64,000 nt of DNA. It comes from Polytrichum commune (Eukaryota; Streptophyta; Polytrichopsida; Polytrichales; Polytrichaceae). The notes beneath the pieces were generated by a model that saw only the letters and a program-made list of their open reading frames with translations, did not search any database and was not told the origin of the DNA. The position numbers were made by a program, and so were the translations under genes. Numbering within the stretch: position 1 is the first letter of the stretch; each line of letters starts with the position of its first letter. The stretch spans positions 59,984,533-60,048,532 of the forward strand of contig OX485804.1 of NCBI GenBank assembly GCA_950295325.1, given 5' to 3'. This document shows, in pieces, positions 4,471 through 60,673 of the stretch.

Positions 4471-4682
4471 AAGCTACAAGGAAGACGTCAATGACGTTGG
4501 GTCTTTTGGGTGTTTCTTTTTGAGGATTTTGAGCAAGTCACGCCATAGGAGGTCTTCAATGCTTCTTCCTCGTTTCCGGGGATCGAGTCGGTTTTTGGGA
4601 TCCTTGGGACTCACGGAAGTTGGGGAGTGAGCTAAGTCGACCGATCCTTTTGGGGACCAATGCCGTTGCTTGGACATTGGAA

Positions 4683-4990
4683 ACCATGCGCTCGGTCCCT
4701 TCCTTTGGGCCCAACCTCGAATGTAGGTCCCGGTAGTGATTCCTCGTCTTATTACCAAGACCTATTAAGGGCTGGGTTACACCGAAGTTGGACCAAGGAA
4801 GATGGCCATTTTCCATGGTCTGGTTTCTTAAAAAAACCATGCGCTCGGTCCCTTCCTTTGGGCCCAACCTCGAATGTAGGTCCCGGTAGTGATTCTTCGT
4901 CTTATTACCAGGACTTATTAAGGGTTGGGTTACACCGAAGTTGGACCAAGGAAGATGGTCCTTTTCCATGGTCCGGTTTCTTAAAAAAAA
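4683..4990 (+). repeat. 153-bp tandem duplication
   Basis: Unit 1 (4683-4835) and unit 2 (4836-4988) both begin ACCATGCGCTCGGTCCC and end in GGTTTCTTAAAAAA. They differ at only about a dozen positions, so the duplication is fairly recent. Both strands are open across it by chance of the repeat. No known protein is encoded. Confidence 0.9.
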
Positions 4991-12447: not shown

Positions 12448-13767
12448 ATAAAAACTCACATTTTAAAATGAATACTAGCACTGCAAGCATGCGAGTTGTG
12501 GACAATTATTTTGTGTCACTGGAAAATTTGTCCTACGTCACTGGAAACTTTGTAAATCTATCATGGCAGTAGATTTGCAGATTCTCTCACCAACATGTGA
12601 CGATTGATCTAAGAATCACATGTCGTTGGTGCATACATGGTTTTATCTATTTGACAACACCAATTGATTCATAGTTTTAAAAAATAAGGATTTGTTCAAG
12701 CCACAACACAACTCGCACAATCTCTCAATACAATAATGATGTCCATTTGTGTGTAAATAGCCTCGTTCCATGGCACGGTCACGTCAATCACTCGCCGAGA
12801 TTGTCGTAAAGCTAAGGAACTACACTCAAAGACCCTAGTTCTTCTTCTTCCTCGGTGGAATCCCACGTAAGACCTATGCACAACAAACATCATGAAGATT
12901 TTAATATTTACCACATCCCGACAAAGTCCCCAATGATTGGTAAAGTCGGAACCCTACTTTCTCATACTACGTTTCTTTATTACTATTAATCTCGAGATGA
13001 AAAATAATGTGGGACTTCCGAAATCCTTGGGTTCGATGTACTCTTCTACCTTACTCAAAGAGGAAAGTGCGTTGTACCTTAACCGGTCGGTGGGGACTTG
13101 GGAGAGTGCAACGCCGGAACAATTGTGCTACATTTCCCTATTCCTATTTGTAACGGCCTCGTGGTGGGCCGGGCATAGAGGTAATTGCTCTAACTTAATG
13201 CTTTGTAGTTCTCCCACCAAAACACATACACCCATCATGTGTTATTATTAATAACATTATTGTATACCTTATTTTAGCCTCTCTAAAGGGACCCAAGGCT
13301 CAAGTAACTAACAAATTGCACATAAGGTAGAGGTGTCTAATCATGTCAATGACTCCAATCTGAACACGTGTTTTTTCTCCAAAGTGGATAACTACGTACT
13401 TGAGCGTGAACATTTCAATGGAGAATGCTATGTAGTCGTGTTATTGTAAGGACTGAAAAACACATTGGTTGGAAGTAGACAAAATGTCAACGATGAATGT
13501 TGTCATTAGGGGGAGGGGGCTATGTAGCTCGTAAGGGTTGAATGACACTTTGAACATTACTATAAAAATTAGGCGTGCTCTAAATCGCACGATTGTAATG
13601 TCTTTGTGCTCATGACGTAATTGCTAACACAAATAAAACATTGCATATTTGTGTGGGTTACACGGGGGGTGCACTTCATTGTCAAGTTGAACACCACGTG
13701 CGATAAAACAAAATCTACTTTTTACATAAAGCATCACCAAAATGGTTCAAAAGTTTATGATTTTTTT

Positions 13768-14040
13768 TCATGAGTAGATATACATAGTATCTATTACATA
13801 GTAAAAATTGGTAACCAAATTTGATGATTTGTTTTTTTTTATAAAACATACCGTTTCTAACTAGAATGACGCAACATTGAACTAAACAAATTACTACAAA
13901 AATGAAGATGACTAAAAATTTCAAAAAAATATACAAAAGATATTATCAATGGTTATGTGTATGTAGAAAAAATATCATAATTTTAAAAATTATCTATGGC
14001 ATGTAATATAAGGTAGCAAAATTTTATCGCACGTGGTTAT
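13768..14040 (+). repeat. Dispersed repeat family H, copy 2
   Basis: Collinear with 500-735 (GAGTAGATATACATAGTATC, AAAATTGGTAACCAAATTTG, GTAATATAAGGTAGCAAA). The surrounding DNA is not shared. Confidence 0.65.
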
Positions 14041-14370
14041 GAAATGTAAGGGGGTGTGATCCCCCCGTGGTGGGTTAGAGAAGGGACTGTGGTGCTCAAT
14101 GTGTATGAATATGCGCGTCTACCTTAAAAGTGCCCCACATCCCCCTTCCCCCATCATCAACCCTTAATGGACGAATCAACCATGAAATGATACGCATGTG
14201 TCAAGTTTTTGAAGTCATCGTGGAGGATTCAAAAAGATTATTCTAAATCGAGTTTCTTTCTTACTTGTGGTTGTTGAAGCTTCACACCAACTCTACCAAA
14301 CGTGTATTATCATAAGTTATTACCATTATTTTACATGGTTGTTTTTTGAAGTGTTGAGATGTCAAGTAAT

Positions 14371-15154: not shown

Positions 15155-15520
15155 TGAGGTACATGGGTGTTATTCGGGTTGCCTTTCTTAATCGGGCGCC
15201 TATATTTGATCGGTGTGTGATTAGGTGAAGATCAAAGAACTAACATCATAAAAGACACATGCTTCAAAGAGATTGAATCACATCTCCAAATGTTATGAAC
15301 TATTTCACACTTATCAGTGAACATAATCGGAAGAGCATGTGTGTTCAGACACACACTTCTGATGATCATGATTAAATCCAGGGAGGTTTGATTTTCGATC
15401 CAATGTTTGTAGATGCTTCGTCGTAGACTCACTAGTGCAACACAAGTTTCGTGATGTAAATCTAATCGGTAGAAGTTGGAGAACATGAAAAACAAAGTGA
15501 ATGATCAGTACCTTATGTCT
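15155..15520 (+). mobile_element. Dispersed element family E, copy 2
   Basis: It is collinear with copy 1 (CCTATATTTGATCGGTGTGT, ACATCATAAAAGACACATGC, GAAGTTGGAGAACATGAAAA). The left flank GAGGTACATGGGTGTTATTC agrees with the inferred terminal repeat. Confidence 0.75.
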
Positions 15521-16285: not shown

Positions 16286-19200
16286 CGGTCAATGCATCCA
16301 TTTCACAAAATACAACATGACATGACACATGAGATTTTGTCGAGGTTTTGACTTATAACAAAGTGACCCATTTCATATTTCCTCATATTTTGAACAATTT
16401 TGTGTCAAACATGCCTATCATTTATTGTAGCCTTTCACTTGCTAGGTGCATGCCAATGAACTTGCAAATAGTAGCCCACCTTTGTGATGTTGAGAGCCAT
16501 TCTACCCACTTCTACCAACATTCTTCAGTTCAATTTTGATAGGTAGTGTGCACATAACTAAAGGTTCACATCTTATCTAGGTGTGATCACATCAATACAT
16601 TTGTGTACAATCAAAATCTTCAAACGTAGTCAGTAGTGTCTCAATCAATCGGTCTCAATAAGTTATCATCCACAACAAACTTTCATCAATACCTAAAAAT
16701 TGTCTTGGTACGTAGTCCCTATCCAAAAGTAGGTTGTTGCATCCCATAAGTCATGTATAGTAACTACACCTATACCTAATTGCCCTTTTGAACATTTAAA
16801 CATGTTTACCATATATATATAGGTATATACATAGGTATATATGTATATGATTCTTATGTGTCTTTTTGGTAATTAAAAGAGAATCATAAAACATGTTGAC
16901 ATTTCATTTCTAGGCACTTTACAAGTAAATAGATGTTTTCATTCTAGGGAAGAATACATATGGATTGTTTCTTAATAAGTGTCACAACTGAGTGTAGTTA
17001 CCATAATTTGTCATCTCATTCATCACTGATCACGGATTCACAATTCATTGATTATTAATTTATAAGATATTGTGATTATCATTTCCTTACATATTTTCAT
17101 CCATAGATCCATCATATGCATCTAGCCTTTGTGACCATGTTATGTCCAATGGCTTGGTCGGAGAAGATGAAGATCAATGTTATGCTCCCACGATTCTCCA
17201 TCGATTGAGTGTATATTCTCACAACCTACTTTCAAAGAACACAACTCCTTTGCACTTTTTGTTCCCTTTTTGTTTCAAAGTCACGTCATGTGATACAACA
17301 TATGAGCTAAGATAAGGTGGTAAAAACCCAAGGATACCTAAAGAGGAACAACAACATCAATGCAATATAGAAAAATGAAAGGAAACGTAGACTTTGAGGA
17401 AGTAGATGATAAACTTTGATCCTAAGAAATGGGGGTATTGCCTCTGTGATCAAAACCAAGCTTCGTCAACATGCTTACATATGAGCTTTTACTCATTATA
17501 ATATTTAGTTGTTAGAAATGAAAATTGAAGAAAATTAAAATCACACCTTCTCAGCCTTCGACATACCATGTATGTAGAGGCCATTCATTAACAAATGGCC
17601 AAAGAGATAAAATTATATTGTGACGTGATTTTATAGCATAAAGTATTCATCGTTGTTTCTAGGGAGTTGTTTATAGACATTACCTAACTATACTAGAGGA
17701 AAACTCACACTCTTTATGGCTCCTTTGACATGAGTTTAGTGTCTTCTCTCATAATAGAATTTAAATGTTTATGATTTATGAAGCATTTTTAATGTTGTAA
17801 AGTAGATAAGACTAACTTTGATGATTTGACAGTTGTGCAAGTTGTTCACCACGGCATGCAACAAAATAAATTATGTTGGGAATTTGTTTATTGTGGTTTA
17901 CTCCTTGCTTGATTGTTGTAAATTTTTGTGTGACATAAGTAATGTTAAAATATTAGTTCGAACCTTTTTTGTACATCAACTAACTTCATTTATCGATGTT
18001 GGGTGATGTGGGTACAAGCAAGGCACCCCACAAAGACTCAAATATGAAAGCATGAATACTGAGTCACTCTATCTACATACAGTTATCTATAATTATTTTT
18101 GGTAATAGTTTTGAATGAAGTTTGTGCTTATGAAGCAAATGTCTTTACATTTTCTCCCTCCCACCCAATGTGAAGACCACAATTGCCATCATTTTGTACT
18201 TTATATGTTTGTCATGGGCATCTCTCTCTCTTTAAATGCTTCTCTTTGTATAAATATCCTACAATTTTGATTCGTATACGGAGACTTTAGTAAAATAAAC
18301 ACACTTATATATTTATGCATACAATATACCCAAACAAGCCTTTTGTATACCAAATTATTACAAAGTATCAAAGTTCTGGTTTAACATGGGTTAGGTAGAT
18401 TTCATACGATTGTAGATGCGACTCTTAGTGCTTGTATGTGAACTTTTAGAAGGATAAAGAACAATAGGATTCCAATGGTTTCATCTTGCCTCTTACCTCA
18501 TGGCACCAAAAAAGATGCAATAAACAACATTCACTTTACTCATAGATAGAGGATTGTAAACAAATATGACCATGTGCATAGTTGTTGAAGTAAACTAGGT
18601 TTGTACTTGTTGTGATTGCAATAACAAGTTGTGTTCCTCTAAAGAGATCTCGTGTATGCTTCACAACAAATTTATAATTATGTTGGATAGCACATGTGAG
18701 GATGAAGCCCCTCTTAATAAATATATTAGCTTCTACATATAATTGCTCTTGCTTGTTTTTCCTATGCATGGACATGTGTTTTATGTAAATGACATTGAGT
18801 TCTTGCTAAGATAATTTCATATTTATAGAATGCCTTTGATTTGTGTATTCTGTCTGGCTGGTAGTGGTTGGTTTTAAAGACACGAGCAAGAAAAGACTAC
18901 ACTCACATGTGTGTGTGGCCTTGAAATATCCCTTCTCAAATGGCAACATTATGCAAATGATTATATTTGCTCAACTTACTTCATTTGATCAAATTTGACT
19001 CGAGGCGGCAAACCTTTTACATTTCTCTCTTTGCTTTTGTTCTTCTTTTATATATTTTTATAAATATGTCCCATACGTGTATATTGCTCCTTGATAGAAC
19101 TCGAATTAAGTACATGACATTGATGCATACATTAAGTTTTATAGCTCATTATACGATGGGCATATGATGTACCATGTTACAACCAATATATGTTGAATTA

Positions 19201-45900: not shown

Positions 45901-47160
45901 AGGGTAAAGGTATGCCTTATCAAAGCTTTTGGGGTTAAAGGACTAAGGTACTACGAGCCCAAATCTTCCTATATTTCCTTTCACTTATTATTAGGCTCCG
46001 TTACGTAGAATGTAACCGATAAAGGCTCAATTTGAATGGGGATGTATTTTGCTATTTCATCTTAATGTAGCAATAAGTAAACTTAAACATATCCATGTGC
46101 ACGGGTAGATCACTTAGTGCATTTTAAAAAACGACGTGCGGCATAATATAGAGAGGATTAAAATCATTTGAAATAAAAATTATAAAGGAATTCCAAATAA
46201 TGAAGGGGCCATTAAATGTAGACAATCCCATTATAAGTAAGTTAGATGGACATAAAGCGTGGGCCATTTTTTTTTTGTAAAATTAATATAGGGGCTGAAG
46301 ATAAGGATCCTAGAAGGTATGTTTAGTATGGTATGTAAATGGGTTCAGGACTCACGGGGATGTTTGCACCCTTCTTTGTTTCCGTGCTTTCCCTCAACAC
46401 TCGTCAATTGCGTTAGGAAGTAGATTAGCTTTTATTCCTTAAAAGGAATATAGAGTACAAAAAATTACAGTGACTTGGACAATATAAGTAATGGAAGGGT
46501 GCAAACAAATGGGCCATTTTTGAAATTTAAGTAATTATAGGGAGGCTTTAATTCAGCCCTTGAAGGTAAATAGCCCCAAAACAAACAAAAAAAACCCCAA
46601 CCGCACGTGCTGCACAAAAATGCCTTAGAGTGATCTACCCGTGTCCATGTGGCATCTTAAGGCTCCCAAAATGTGGACTTCTTGGGCTCTTGAGGGTCGA
46701 GGCTCTTGAGGAGCCCATATATTATACATATTAGGGACGGCTACTCATCGGAGGCCTTGGTCAAGTTCATGTTCTCATGTTTTTCGTGGTCGAAGGCTTC
46801 AAAAAGAGGTCATTTATAACATACATAGTTGGACGCACATGAACAATTTTGCCTACTAATAAATGCAGGGATATGTACGCCACTGTACTTCAAGAAGTTC
46901 CAAAGTCAATGGTAGGAAAAAAAAACATTTGCTTGGTCTCTTGCAAAGGTTCTAAAATCACATCAAACTTAGGCAAGCACACACATAAGGATGTGTGACT
47001 CCTTTGTGGGCACCTCTAACTCCGTTGAATAATCGACTTTGAGGGAATAGTCTCGTGCATTCAACCACTCCAAAGTCACAAAGAGTGTGTCATTTAGAAA
47101 GAAAGAACAAATTCAACATTGAAGCATAGACTCATGTGAAAGAAGAAGTGTAAGATCAAT
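42946..47160. other. Gene-free DNA 3' of the gene
   Basis: Short ORFs at 43092-43427 (plus) and 42997-43245 (minus) overlap and show no domain. Isolated words such as AAGGTAGATGGGTCCTTAAATGGG (44106) resemble intron 11 near 33720. The family J element lies at 46.1-46.7 kb. Nothing else is supported. Confidence 0.45.
46088..46655. mobile_element. Element with long (about 55 bp) terminal inverted repeats, family J
   Basis: Left 46091-46144 and right 46600-46652 are inverted repeats sharing CCATG, CACGGGTAGATCACT, GCATTTT and CACGTGCGG-type words. The interior (about 450 bp) has no ORF of note. Long imperfect ends are typical of Mutator-like MITEs, but no 9-bp duplication could be assigned. Confidence 0.6.
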
Positions 47161-47302
47161 CTTTCACGTTCGAGCAGTTAGATTCGCCCTCCCAGCCGCT
47201 TACATTGTTGAACCCAAAACGATCATCAACATACATGACACACATCGTCCAAACCCCATCGTAACATGTATCTTCCTTCCATGTAGTGTCAATTCTTTCC
47301 TA

Positions 47303-47493
47303 CGTAACCGGTTGGCCGCTTTGTTTCGCCGAGGTGGCACTACACGATTGGCTCTGAGCACATAGGTTTGCAGACGAAAACCTCGACATCCCAGCCGGTT
47401 ATGATCATCTAAATCGGATATGTTGAAGAAGACGACATGTGACCCACTGTTTAGGTCACCTACGCGGCTCAACAAAGCGGCCAACCGGTTACG
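47303..47493. repeat. Perfect 23-bp inverted repeat pair beside the hairpin
   Basis: The sequence at 47303-47325, which starts CGTAACCGGTTGGCCGC, is repeated exactly in reverse complement at 47471-47493. The 145 bp between do not fold further. The right arm ends 3 bp before the 47-bp hairpin, so the two foldbacks together form one AACCGGTT-rich block. A long minus-strand reading frame crosses this block but shows no recognisable protein. Confidence 0.8.
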
Positions 47494-47496
47494 TCC

Positions 47497-47624
47497 GGTA
47501 ATCGTTTTATTGGAACCGGTCATCAGTGCAGAACAGGTTCTGTCCAGCTGGCTCGCCCTCGCGGGCTCGCCACCTCGACAGAACCGGTTCTGCACCGATA
47601 ACCGGTTCCAATAAAACGATTACC
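47497..47624. repeat. Near-perfect hairpin with 47-bp arms
   Basis: The left arm 47497-47543 and right arm 47578-47624 pair at 44 of 47 positions around a 34-nt loop (47544-47577) that is GC-rich. The arms are rich in ACCGGTT and GAACCGGTTC. Such perfection suggests a recent foldback insertion or a locus kept as a hairpin. If transcribed, the stem is long enough to be a small-RNA precursor. No 8-bp flank duplication is obvious. Confidence 0.85.
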
Positions 47625-48208
47625 TAATACATATACCACTCGAACACATAACGCCCACACAACACACCTCATAACACGGAGTAGGTGGAATCGAGAGAGA
47701 GTACACGAAGAAGAGATGCCCCGAAATGGTTCCTTGTGTCGAGACATGGATAGCCTTTTCCACGATCGACAATGCATTGTTGGCCCCATGATCGGGTGTG
47801 TTATTGAACTTGATGGGTTTTTCGTAGGATCATTCATACCCACACCAACTCATGCCTTCGCCCTTTCCTCCTTCATTACAAGTACGGGGACCCATATATG
47901 GCTGTGTACGTCCACATAGATTTGGCAGCATGGCAGGTGTATAAGGATTTGTAAATATCTTTCTATCTTTCTATCTCTCTCTCTCTCTCGATCTCGACCC
48001 CGAATTCAAGTTGTAACCTGAATCTACTTGTGGGTGGTTCTCGGGAGCTTCTAGAAACATCTAGTGGCTCCTGGTCAATGGACGGGAAGCACCGACAGGT
48101 GAACCGGTGGAAGTTCAAGACTTCACGACGAAGATTACCGGTGCGGTTAGAGGAATCTAGAGAATATGCCTTCGATTAAGAAAGGGGAACCGAAAGAGGT
48201 CACCGGTT

Positions 48209-48457
48209 CAGTGATCGGGGAGATTTTTGGGCATAAGAAAATCGGTTGAGATTATCCTAGTGTTTGCAAGTCCAACCGGTTACATGTTGTTGACATCCTC
48301 CAGTTTTCCTTTATTAAATTGAGGTATATTCTTCTATACATTCCTCGAAAATGATCGGTAATTTTCTTGTAGTCTTGATGAACTTCTTCGACCGGTTCTT
48401 ATTTCTCAAACTCAACCGGTTCATCTGTAACTAACTGCCGGTTCTCCCCGATCATTG
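48209..48457 (+). mobile_element. hAT-type MITE, family A copy 1 (249 bp), with perfect 8-bp target-site duplication
   Basis: It begins CAGTGATCGGGGAGA and ends TCTCCCCGATCATTG, so the terminal inverted repeats match at 14 of 15 positions and fit the hAT start rule YARNG. The 8 bp on each side are identical: CACCGGTT at 48201-48208 and 48458-48465. The interior is studded with AACCGGTT/ACCGGTT words, typical of transposase-binding subterminal repeats. It has no coding capacity and would need an hAT transposase supplied elsewhere. Confidence 0.9.
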
Positions 48458-48491
48458 CACCGGTTGGACTTGGAAACGCTAGGATCTCGAC

Positions 48492-48733
48492 CAGTGATTA
48501 GGGAGCTTTTTGGGCATACTAATCGGTTGGGATCCTAGTGTTTGCAAGTCCAACCGGTTACATGTTGACATCCTCCGGTTTTTCCTTTATTAAGTTGAGG
48601 TATATTCTTCTATAGATTCCTCTTAAATGATCGGTAATTTTCCTATAGTCTTGATGAACTACTTCGACCGGTTCTTATTTCTCAAACTCAACCGGTTCAT
48701 CTGTAACTAACTGCCGGTTCTCCCCGATCATTG
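48492..48733 (+). mobile_element. hAT-type MITE, family A copy 2 (242 bp), 8-bp target-site duplication with one C/T change
   Basis: It runs from CAGTGATTAGGGAGC to TCTCCCCGATCATTG and is nearly identical to copy 1 inside. The flanks are ATCTCGAC (48484-48491) and ATCTTGAC (48734-48741), differing by one C to T at a CpG, as expected from decay of methylated DNA. It sits 34 bp after copy 1, so the two look like a tandem repeat but are independent insertions. Confidence 0.88.
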
Positions 48734-49434
48734 ATCTTGACCAATTATAACCCACATTCCTCCCCAACAATGGTGGTGGTTCAATATTTTGCAATATATA
48801 AATATGTTCAGCCCTTCAATCCTTTTCAAAGGAATCTTTCACGAATAACGTAAAGAATATTATGGGGCCATCCTAGTTATTTTGGCTCTTCGAGTCTGAA
48901 TCTGATATGTAATGGCCCGAGGCGATTTTATTATTTGCGGTTTGAGATTTATCATACATGTCGACATGCACAATGATTTCACTTTTGACAAAAGATCAAC
49001 GGTACCATATTCTAACCATGTAACATAACGTTATTTAGTTGCTATTAGCCGATCCATTCTAATAATATTGGTATATTGTTTCACCCCGAGTTTTTCAGCA
49101 TGAACATGTCAGTGCAATGCTTTATTGTGAGAATAAATAGAGTAGAGTTTCGAATAAAATTTGGTTTATTCCCAATCTCACCTAGCGTACAAACTCAGCT
49201 ATATATTGTTATGTTAAAATTATGGAGGCTAGAGATTTTATTGAAATCCAAAAAGTGTTTTATTTTTTTTATTTTTTTCTTTTTTTCTTTTTTATAGAAG
49301 GTGCTCTATACCTATGTTCAACTTTTGGCAAAAACTTGGCAAAAAAACCCAACTAAATTAAGACCCCCATACAAAGAGGTCCGTGGCATTTGGGGTCTTT
49401 ATATGACCCAAAAATGCATTTAAGGGCGCCCTTA

Positions 49435-49825: not shown

Positions 49826-50285
49826 TCGAGAGTGTGAATTCCATCGCCTTTCAAAAAAAAGCACATAATGTATGCCTCCTAATCTAGTAACCATAGTGCA
49901 CCTTATACCATCTGAATTTCTCCGGCGCAAAGCGGGGCCAAATTTGGGTGAAAGATGGGACAATTATGAAAAAAATGTTGGGTTTGTTATGGATAAGTGT
50001 TGGGATGGTTTTGGCAACCGTTTAAATGGAAAAATGTTTGAAGTCTAGGGAGGGATTTAAGTACATAGCTAGGGGTAAGTTATTTTTTTAATTTTTTATA
50101 ACATGCAAATTTTGAAGTTTCTTTTTATCATGTCTCAGTGAATTTGTTAAGTCAATAATGCATACCACTAATCCATATGGACTCGAAAAATAGGCCAAAT
50201 CAGCCAAAAGGTTGGTTAAGCAACCTCTATCTTAAGTATTTTTAATTGATTACTATGCATCTTGCATATAAAGATGAGTTTACAA

Positions 50286-50511
50286 CAGTGATCAGGGAGA
50301 TTTCTGGGCATAATCGGTTGAGATCCTAGGGTTTGCAAGTCCAACCGGTTACATGTTGACATCCTCCGGTTTTCCTTTATTAAACTAGGGTATATTCTAT
50401 CAAATCCTCTAAAATTATCGGCAATTTTCCTACAGTCTTGAACTTCAACCAGTCATTTCTCAAACTCAACCGGTTCATTTGTAACTAACTGCCAATTCTC
50501 CCCGATCATTG
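50286..50511 (+). mobile_element. hAT-type MITE, family A copy 3 (226 bp), with perfect 8-bp target-site duplication
   Basis: It begins CAGTGATCAGGGAGA and ends TCTCCCCGATCATTG. The flanking 8 bp are identical: GTTTACAA at 50278-50285 and 50512-50519. The interior matches copies 1 and 2 with small deletions and several CCGG to CCAG/TCGG-like changes. The target lies in unrelated DNA, which proves mobility of the family as a unit. Confidence 0.92.
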
Positions 50512-50625
50512 GTTTACAATAGGGTCGTGTTCCAAGTAACTTGGGCTCCAAAACAACCCATGTGGACCTAACTTTCGGATTCAAGATTAGACTTAAGCTT
50601 GAAAATTGGTTTCTCAAATTCAGAG

Positions 50626-57596: not shown

Positions 57597-58165
57597 AGAG
57601 CGAGACCACGCTCCTTGCATGTGCATCCGCATTTGCACTTTATCATTTGCAATGCAGATGCAGGGAAGCTACCCACTCACTAATGTAAACATCAATCATG
57701 GATGAAATTTTATGCCAGAAGCCTCGAACTCCATGCATATGTGAGGGACATGTAGGAAGGGTTATATATAATAAGAGAATTTTTAAAAAAAAAACTTTCG
57801 GCTTACTGCTTTTCTCTAGTATGAGCTAGTTATAGATGATCCGGATGAGCTTGAAAAATAACCGGGTGAGGTTTGGGACTTCATGAAAATTACTAGTTAT
57901 ATATGATCTGGATGAGTTTGAGAGATAAGTGGTCGAGGTTTGAGGCTTCAAAAAATTAGCCATCGCAAATGAACCGGACGAGTTTGAGAAATAACCAGTT
58001 GAAGTTCATGACTTCAGAAAATCACCAATCATTTCAGAGGAAATTCAAAAGTTAGCATTGCAGGATGAGTGGCAGTTTTGCCAGGGTCTGCATTTGCATC
58101 ATGGATGGGGTCCACTTTTCATTCCCGGATGCAGATGCATATCTAGGAACGATCAAGCTTGCTCT
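57597..58165 (-). mobile_element. Foldback element with long inverted ends and a three-unit 67-bp tandem core derived from family A sequence
   Basis: The ends are imperfect inverted repeats of about 75-100 bp (left 57597-57670, right 58060-58165) sharing GCATCTGCATCC, TGCATTTGCA and CCACTCA-type words. The core holds three units with CCGGATGAG at 57841, CTGGATGAG at 57908 and CCGGACGAG at 57974 (periods 67 and 66 bp). Each unit aligns, in reverse orientation, to one internal segment of the family A hAT MITE (GAACCGG ... GAGTTTGAGAAAT ... GTTGAAGTTCA), and homology continues into the next MITE segment at about 58024-58050. The boundaries and the link between arms and core are approximate. Confidence 0.6.
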
Positions 58166-59575: not shown

Positions 59576-59850
59576 TCAACACAACCTGAGGAGAGGGGAG
59601 AGAAGGACGACACAATATTTGGATAACTAGACGAAGGTAAAGTTGCACGACACCTACTAGGTGAGGGTGAAAACACAAAAACAAACAATCGTAAGTCCAA
59701 AAGTTTTTCTTTTGAGTCAATCGACCCTCAACTTGGGGTCAGAGACAGTTTGACCTCAAATAGATTGAATTAACAACACACTTAAGAGGAGCATCATTTT
59801 AGAAGAATCTATGGAATATATCTCACATTAACAAAGAAAAGTAAAAAAGT

Positions 59851-59917
59851 GTCAATATGTAACCGGTTGGACTTGGAAACACTAGAATCTCAACCGGTTA
59901 TGCCCAAAAATCTCTCA
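59851..59917 (-). mobile_element. Truncated hAT-type MITE fragment, family A
   Basis: About 67 bp match the 5' part of the family on the minus strand: GTAACCGGTTGGACTTGGAA, CTAGAATCTCAACCGGTTAT and GCCCAAAAATCTCT. The outermost bases and the rest of the element are missing. Confidence 0.75.
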
Positions 59918-60673
59918 CAATACTACTTAGCTCATATATACATGCTTGAGGCGCACACACGCCGGTAAATGATAGATAGTTATAATTACTCACCTCCCCA
60001 TGGATCGACATTTAAGACAAAAATCAGGAAAAAAAATAGAAATTATAAGAAATTCAACAATTGAAATGATGAAAAGCGTGTGGTAAAATTGATTGGATCA
60101 TTAAGATGAAGAAGCGAGGGTGGTAATTTATGAAATTGCATCATGACTTTGAGTCAATTGTTTGAGGCCATGCATGCGTAAGCTAAGTTCGATTCGGTAC
60201 TTACTTTTACTCTGCCGAGATCGATCTCACACAATTAAGTGCGGAATTTTTTTTAAAAGTTAGTTGGACCTTGCATCGAGTCCTCAAAACTTCTGCAATT
60301 GAAATTTAATTATGCTTTATTTATAATTACTACTTCTTACTGCATTGCTTGCATGCGAGGGTCGTCATGGTCCCATTGAATTTGAGCGGCCTCTTCGGCT
60401 TCCACCACCGACGCCACCTCAAATTTTGGGCCCAGCTTTTTCGTGCTTTGGGTCTCGAAGCATATGACATTATTGAGACTGCCTTCCCAACCTAACTTAC
60501 TGCCATTTCACATGGCCCTTTTGGGCAAATTTGGCCATTTCATAATTTAGCCCTTAAAGGACACGGGGTCTCACTATATATGAGCTTTACGGCCAAAGAC
60601 ACAAACTAATAAGTTTTACGGGCCTCATTGTGTTCATGAAACATGTTTTATATATATATGGGCTAGGAACCTT

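Follow-up and report, generated by a model that had tools for sequence, protein, structure and literature searches.

Analysis of a window of 64,000 nucleotides of Polytrichum commune (contig OX485804.1) revealed a nest of related MITEs. The segment 48076-48772 very probably consists of one older, inverted element holding two later, independent insertions of the same non-autonomous hAT-type family. The original prediction had read three insertion events from this segment, and the inverted ends, the target duplications and the reverse alignment of the remaining host sequence all agree with it. The features of the nest are given below, the older element being referred to as the host.

48076-48208, minus strand: older host element, 3' part (read on the minus strand), ending in the left duplication of copy 1
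48201-48208, no strand: target duplication of copy 1, left, CACCGGTT
48209-48457, plus strand: copy 1, hAT-type MITE, 249 bp
48458-48465, no strand: target duplication of copy 1, right, CACCGGTT
48466-48491, minus strand: older host element, middle piece of 26 bp separating the two inserts
48484-48491, no strand: target duplication of copy 2, left, ATCTCGAC
48492-48733, plus strand: copy 2, hAT-type MITE, 242 bp
48734-48741, no strand: target duplication of copy 2, right, ATCTTGAC
48742-48772, minus strand: older host element, 5' end (read on the minus strand)

Ends and target duplications

The ends of hAT elements are short terminal inverted repeats starting with YARNG. Copy 1, copy 2 and a third intact copy at 50286-50511 read CAGTG / CAATG at their ends. 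Copies 1 and 2 both start with CAGTGAT and end with ATCATTG; the inverted ends of copy 1 (CAGTGATCGGGGAGA / CAATGATCGGGGAGA) are identical at 14 of 15 positions, those of copy 2 (CAGTGATTAGGGAGC / CAATGATCGGGGAGA) at only 11 of 15 and those of the third copy at 13 of 15. The 8-bp duplication is exact (8/8) for copy 1 and for the third copy, where GTTTACAA sits at 50278-50285 and 50512-50519. The flanks of copy 2 are alike at 7 of 8 positions, the mismatch being one C/T difference at a CpG. Random 8-mer pairs from the window agreed at 8/8 with a frequency of 5e-5 and at 7/8 or better with a frequency of 6.6e-4. These ends and duplications fit the assignment of the copies to hAT-type MITEs, and the earlier statement that each insert carries hAT-type ends and its own 8-bp duplication is borne out by agreements of 8/8 and 7/8.

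The 64-kb window was scanned for elements with a YARNG start at both ends, a duplication of 7/8 or 8/8 and inverted ends of at least 10/14; the thresholds were chosen after the copies had been seen and no positions were supplied to the scan. Three matches were obtained, namely copy 1, copy 2 and 50286-50511, compared to two matches in total in 20 first-order Markov windows. A second scan, run without a null, accepted any start with an exact duplication and inverted ends of at least 11/14. It gave seven matches including copy 1 and 50286-50511 and did not include copy 2, whose duplication has one mismatch.

Two other elements, 46092-46651 and 13653-14077 (duplications included), have CACGGG inverted ends of 14/14 and 12/14 and exact 8-bp duplications, TCCATGTG and GTGGGTTA respectively. 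Of their four ends, three have CACGTG nearby and one has GACGTG. They perhaps represent a second family, with uncontrolled mutual alignment scores of 61 and 55.

Further family copies in the window

The element sizes range from 190 to 249 bp, and five or six elements are present in the window, depending on whether two minus strand fragments are counted as one or two. The copies outside the nest are as follows.

50286-50511, plus strand: intact copy of 226 bp outside the nest, the third in the window, with exact GTTTACAA duplications
57824-58042, minus strand: fragment from the 3' part of a family element, three hits covering profile positions 119-211
59793-59920, minus strand: fragment from the 5' half of a family element, positions 6-133 of the 232-position profile

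The copy at 50286-50511, which was absent from the original prediction, differs from copy 1 at 23 of 226 positions and from copy 2 at 22 of 226; as it lies outside the nest, it is usable as an independent yardstick. Copy 1, copy 2, the 50286 copy and the host remainder served as the training set of the profile model with which the window was searched. The E-values of this model are therefore circular for these copies, and reliance was placed on pairwise tests. Of its 12 matches, two above the inclusion threshold, 15172-15203 (E 1.8) and 17664-17704 (E 8.6), were dropped.

Taken together, the two minus strand pieces resemble a single family element interrupted by about 1.75 kb, with profile ranges overlapping by 15 positions. 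A stretch of 15 bp (13/15 alike) recurs at the junctions of this split element and may be the target duplication of the intruder. Within 57824-58022 an inner MITE stretch of about 66 bp occurs three times in tandem, a possible nascent MITE-derived minisatellite.

The older inverted host

Both inserts, together with one copy of each duplication, were removed in silico, leaving a host remainder of 190 bp. This remainder aligned to the family in reverse orientation, as anticipated for a target that is a diverged, inverted family member. Against the 50286-50511 copy the score was 142 in reverse and 23 forward, with a maximum of 52 in 1000 dinucleotide-preserving shuffles; the corresponding reverse, forward and shuffle maximum scores were 127, 23 and 52 for copy 1 and 142, 16 and 65 for copy 2. 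A blastn search of the window with the remainder matched 50310-50453 with 72% identity over 147 columns (E 1.7e-18), and the larger host piece alone was weakly matched (E 0.004 for copy 1 and 0.001 for copy 2).

The boundaries of the inserts were also examined by the alignment score. It went down to 97 when both copies of each duplication were removed, and it was lower in 10 of 10 trials (61-129) when the left edges of the inserts were shifted by 4 to 30 bases. Retaining both copies of each duplication gave 139 versus 142, a loss of only 3 points, so that alignment alone barely separates one duplication copy from two and the single-copy junction is not proven by it.

The host differs from the other three copies by 26-30% and is without part of the 3' half that they have. 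Its terminal sequences are CAATG / CATTG, with 9/15 identity and one of the two ends off YARNG. The flanking 8 bp, CTCCTGGT / GTGGTGGT, agree at 5 of 8 positions, at a random frequency of 0.035 for 5/8 or better; with ends decayed to 9/15 and such flanks, the host's own duplication is not established. The description of the inserts as young thus holds in a relative sense only, since 14 of 241 aligned bases (about 6%) separate them from each other and their divergence from the host is 26-27% over 190 bases.

Nesting versus tandem duplication

Copies 1 and 2 are both on the plus strand and are spaced 275-283 bp, the spacing that a 283-bp tandem duplication would leave. The spacer between them is 34 bp, made up of the 26-bp middle piece of the host and 48458-48465. 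Under such a duplication the spacer should resemble a flank one period away, but it matches the 34 bases before copy 1 at only 6 of 34 positions and those after copy 2 at 11 of 34, and each copy has its own, different target duplication. The local score between the spacer and the bases before copy 1 was 16, marginally more than the 15 that random 34-mers reach at their 95% point; CACCGGTT, the duplication of copy 1, is present in both sequences. An origin of the two copies by tandem duplication is extremely improbable and was rejected, the spacer being continuous with the host and unlike either flank. The apparent 283-bp tandem repeat is, as originally read, the product of nested insertions.

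Proposed insertion history

The arrangement is very probably accounted for by a non-autonomous hAT-type MITE family of about 190-250 bp that was moved in trans. The mover would be a hAT transposase encoded elsewhere, its own element having matching, CAGTGATCGGGGAG-like ends. One family copy inserted at 48076-48772 on the minus strand and then decayed. Two family members were later pasted independently into the 5' subterminal part of this host, each creating an 8-bp duplication. Copy 1 landed at positions 58-65 of the remainder and copy 2 at positions 32-39, each running opposite to the host. The inserts probably landed in the ordinary way in a tolerated, element-rich stretch, with no special targeting rule.

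Candidates for the mover were searched within the window. No transposase match was found with Pfam in the 124 open frames (minimum length 75 aa), a search that short exons and decayed genes would escape; four families other than transposases were matched, each through a single frame (E 0.0015-0.0044), and seven long open frames gave no Pfam family. There was no RNA family match at the gathering threshold. A 19-base family pattern had no match in viral contigs, and a 25-base family pattern had none in bacterial and archaeal genomes, which is what a eukaryotic, probably plant, window would lead one to expect.

The order of events had been described as readable. Nesting places the host first, and this part of the claim stands; the order of the two inserts does not follow, because they struck different places of the host and nesting does not fix which came earlier. 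That copy 2 is the older insert is weakly hinted at by the CpG C/T difference in its duplication and by its poorer inverted ends, one change being insufficient to settle it.

The independence of the two insertions has to be weighed against linked transposition, in which one insert came first and the other is its local re-insertion, followed perhaps by sequence exchange between the neighbours. Of the three intact copies, copies 1 and 2 are the most alike (14/241 versus 22/226 and 23/226), and no difference separates them over their last 72 aligned bases. For a recent local jump, however, 14 differences is a large number, and the closeness is judged on three copies. An identical run of at least 72 appeared in 8.6% of column shuffles of the copy 1/copy 2 alignment, and with this value (0.086) sequence exchange between the copies was rejected as not significant. 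Linked transposition is accordingly considered very unlikely, and two independent insertions into the host are preferred.

Target sites and self-insertion

At the target of copy 1 (remainder positions 58-65) the host reads AACCGGTG and the 50286 copy reads AACCGGTT; at the target of copy 2 (remainder positions 32-39) the 50286 copy reads GTTGAGAT. A preference for insertion into AACCGGTT had been suggested earlier, and it comes down to a single insertion, as ACCGGTT is found in one of the three clear duplications (copy 1) and the 50286 copy sits in GTTTACAA. AACCGGTT as a required target is unsupported at this count. The pattern nTnnnnAn, reported for the hAT transposase Hermes (PMC10368747), is fitted by two of the three clear duplications (ATCTCGAC and GTTTACAA), while CACCGGTT of copy 1 does not fit; T....A is present at 9.1% of window positions.

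The hexamers CCGGTT or AACCGG gave six matches at four places in copy 1, compared to 0.14 on average and no more than 3 in any of 2000 shuffles. They lie at positions 66-68, 184, 206-208 and 230 of 249, not all near the ends. The transposase of maize Ac binds cooperatively to AAACGG hexamers that recur in the subterminal regions of the element (PMC3260210). By this analogy the AACCGGTT-like motifs may be putative subterminal transposase-binding repeats. The window contains 13 AACCGGTT, of which 8 are within family copies, 4 at 47306-47600 and 1 at 4990; the motif also occurs outside the family copies and is therefore not unique to the family.

The region 47302-47624 consists of neighbouring palindromes, one with 62-nt arms separated by 4 nt and one with 30-nt arms separated by 133 nt; they hold four AACCGGTT and were not recognised as the MITE family. 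At 4681-4989 there are two tandem copies of a 153-bp unit with 95% matches, and the AACCGGTT at 4990 follows directly.

A preference of the family for its own copies, whereby the transposase on resident AACCGGTT-like subterminal repeats would keep an incoming copy near, was considered in view of the location of the inserts. Both lie in the 5' subterminal part of the host, 26 bp apart, the target of copy 1 is the AACCGGTT motif position itself, and 8 of the 13 AACCGGTT are inside family copies. When five elements are counted, with the two minus strand fragments merged into a single 220-bp element, uniform landing would be expected to give 0.035 nestings per 64 kb, and the probability of at least two was 5.9e-4. 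Within the 12-kb stretch that holds the elements, however, the expectation rose to 0.185 and the probability to 0.015 by local density alone, and the count is post hoc, the stretch having been picked because it was nested. Two of the three clear duplications are without ACCGGTT, and the four AACCGGTT of the 47306-47600 palindromes and the one at 4990 are without a family match. A self-insertion preference is thus unlikely. In its more specific form, the family transposase would bind AACCGGTT-like subterminal repeats and resident copies would act as landing pads, so that self-nesting would arise from hAT end recognition; this form is decidedly unlikely. If it were true, inverted and direct pairs of ends would be built that are able to undergo alternative transposition.

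Comparison with known systems

In maize and rice, MITEs are described as commonly inserting into copies of their own family (Jiang and Wessler 2001, via PMC3695323); for carrot, PMC3695323 gives a probable DcSto-in-DcSto insertion and a DcSto2 inside a DcSto1. The present nest is like these nested plant MITEs of rice, maize and carrot in being made of small non-coding elements within other MITEs. It is unlike DcSto in that DcSto elements are Stowaway with TA duplications, whereas the copies in the window have hAT-type ends and 8-bp duplications, and in that one host copy is shared here by two inserts. As same-family nesting of MITEs has already been described, the present case is a well-preserved new example of a known phenomenon. 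Its distinctive point is the geometry: two copies in direct orientation, with a 34-bp spacer, lie within a copy that is inverted relative to both. No self-nesting of hAT MITEs was found among the papers listed by a literature search, judged by titles and the beginnings of abstracts, and the first 14 bases of copy 1 had no match in the main texts of the literature searched.

Maize Ac/Ds (PMC3260210 and PMC8225341) is likewise hAT, with 8-bp duplications, repeated CGG-bearing subterminal hexamers and nested or closely linked copies. It differs in having AAACGG and 11-bp ends (PMC3260210), where AACCGG and ends of about 15 bp are seen here, and no Ac-like transposase was matched among the 124 open frames of the window. 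Mar of Drosophila is also described as a hAT MITE family (PMC3517528).

According to PMC8225341, the facing ends of two direct elements in maize are able to enter reversed-ends transposition, with breaks and rearrangements as the outcome. The authors of PMC3260210 suggested that nested Ds turn chromosome-breaking and are for this reason less frequent. Since such an arrangement is rearrangement-prone in maize Ac/Ds, the survival of the nest hints that the transposase is gone or dead, or that the decayed ends of the host are out of play.

The nest offers a clean, compact case of three transposition events legible within a single 700-bp stretch. It also cautions that what looks like a 283-bp tandem repeat may be due to nesting alone. 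Should self-targeting through subterminal repeats hold genome-wide, it would help to explain the clustering of MITEs.
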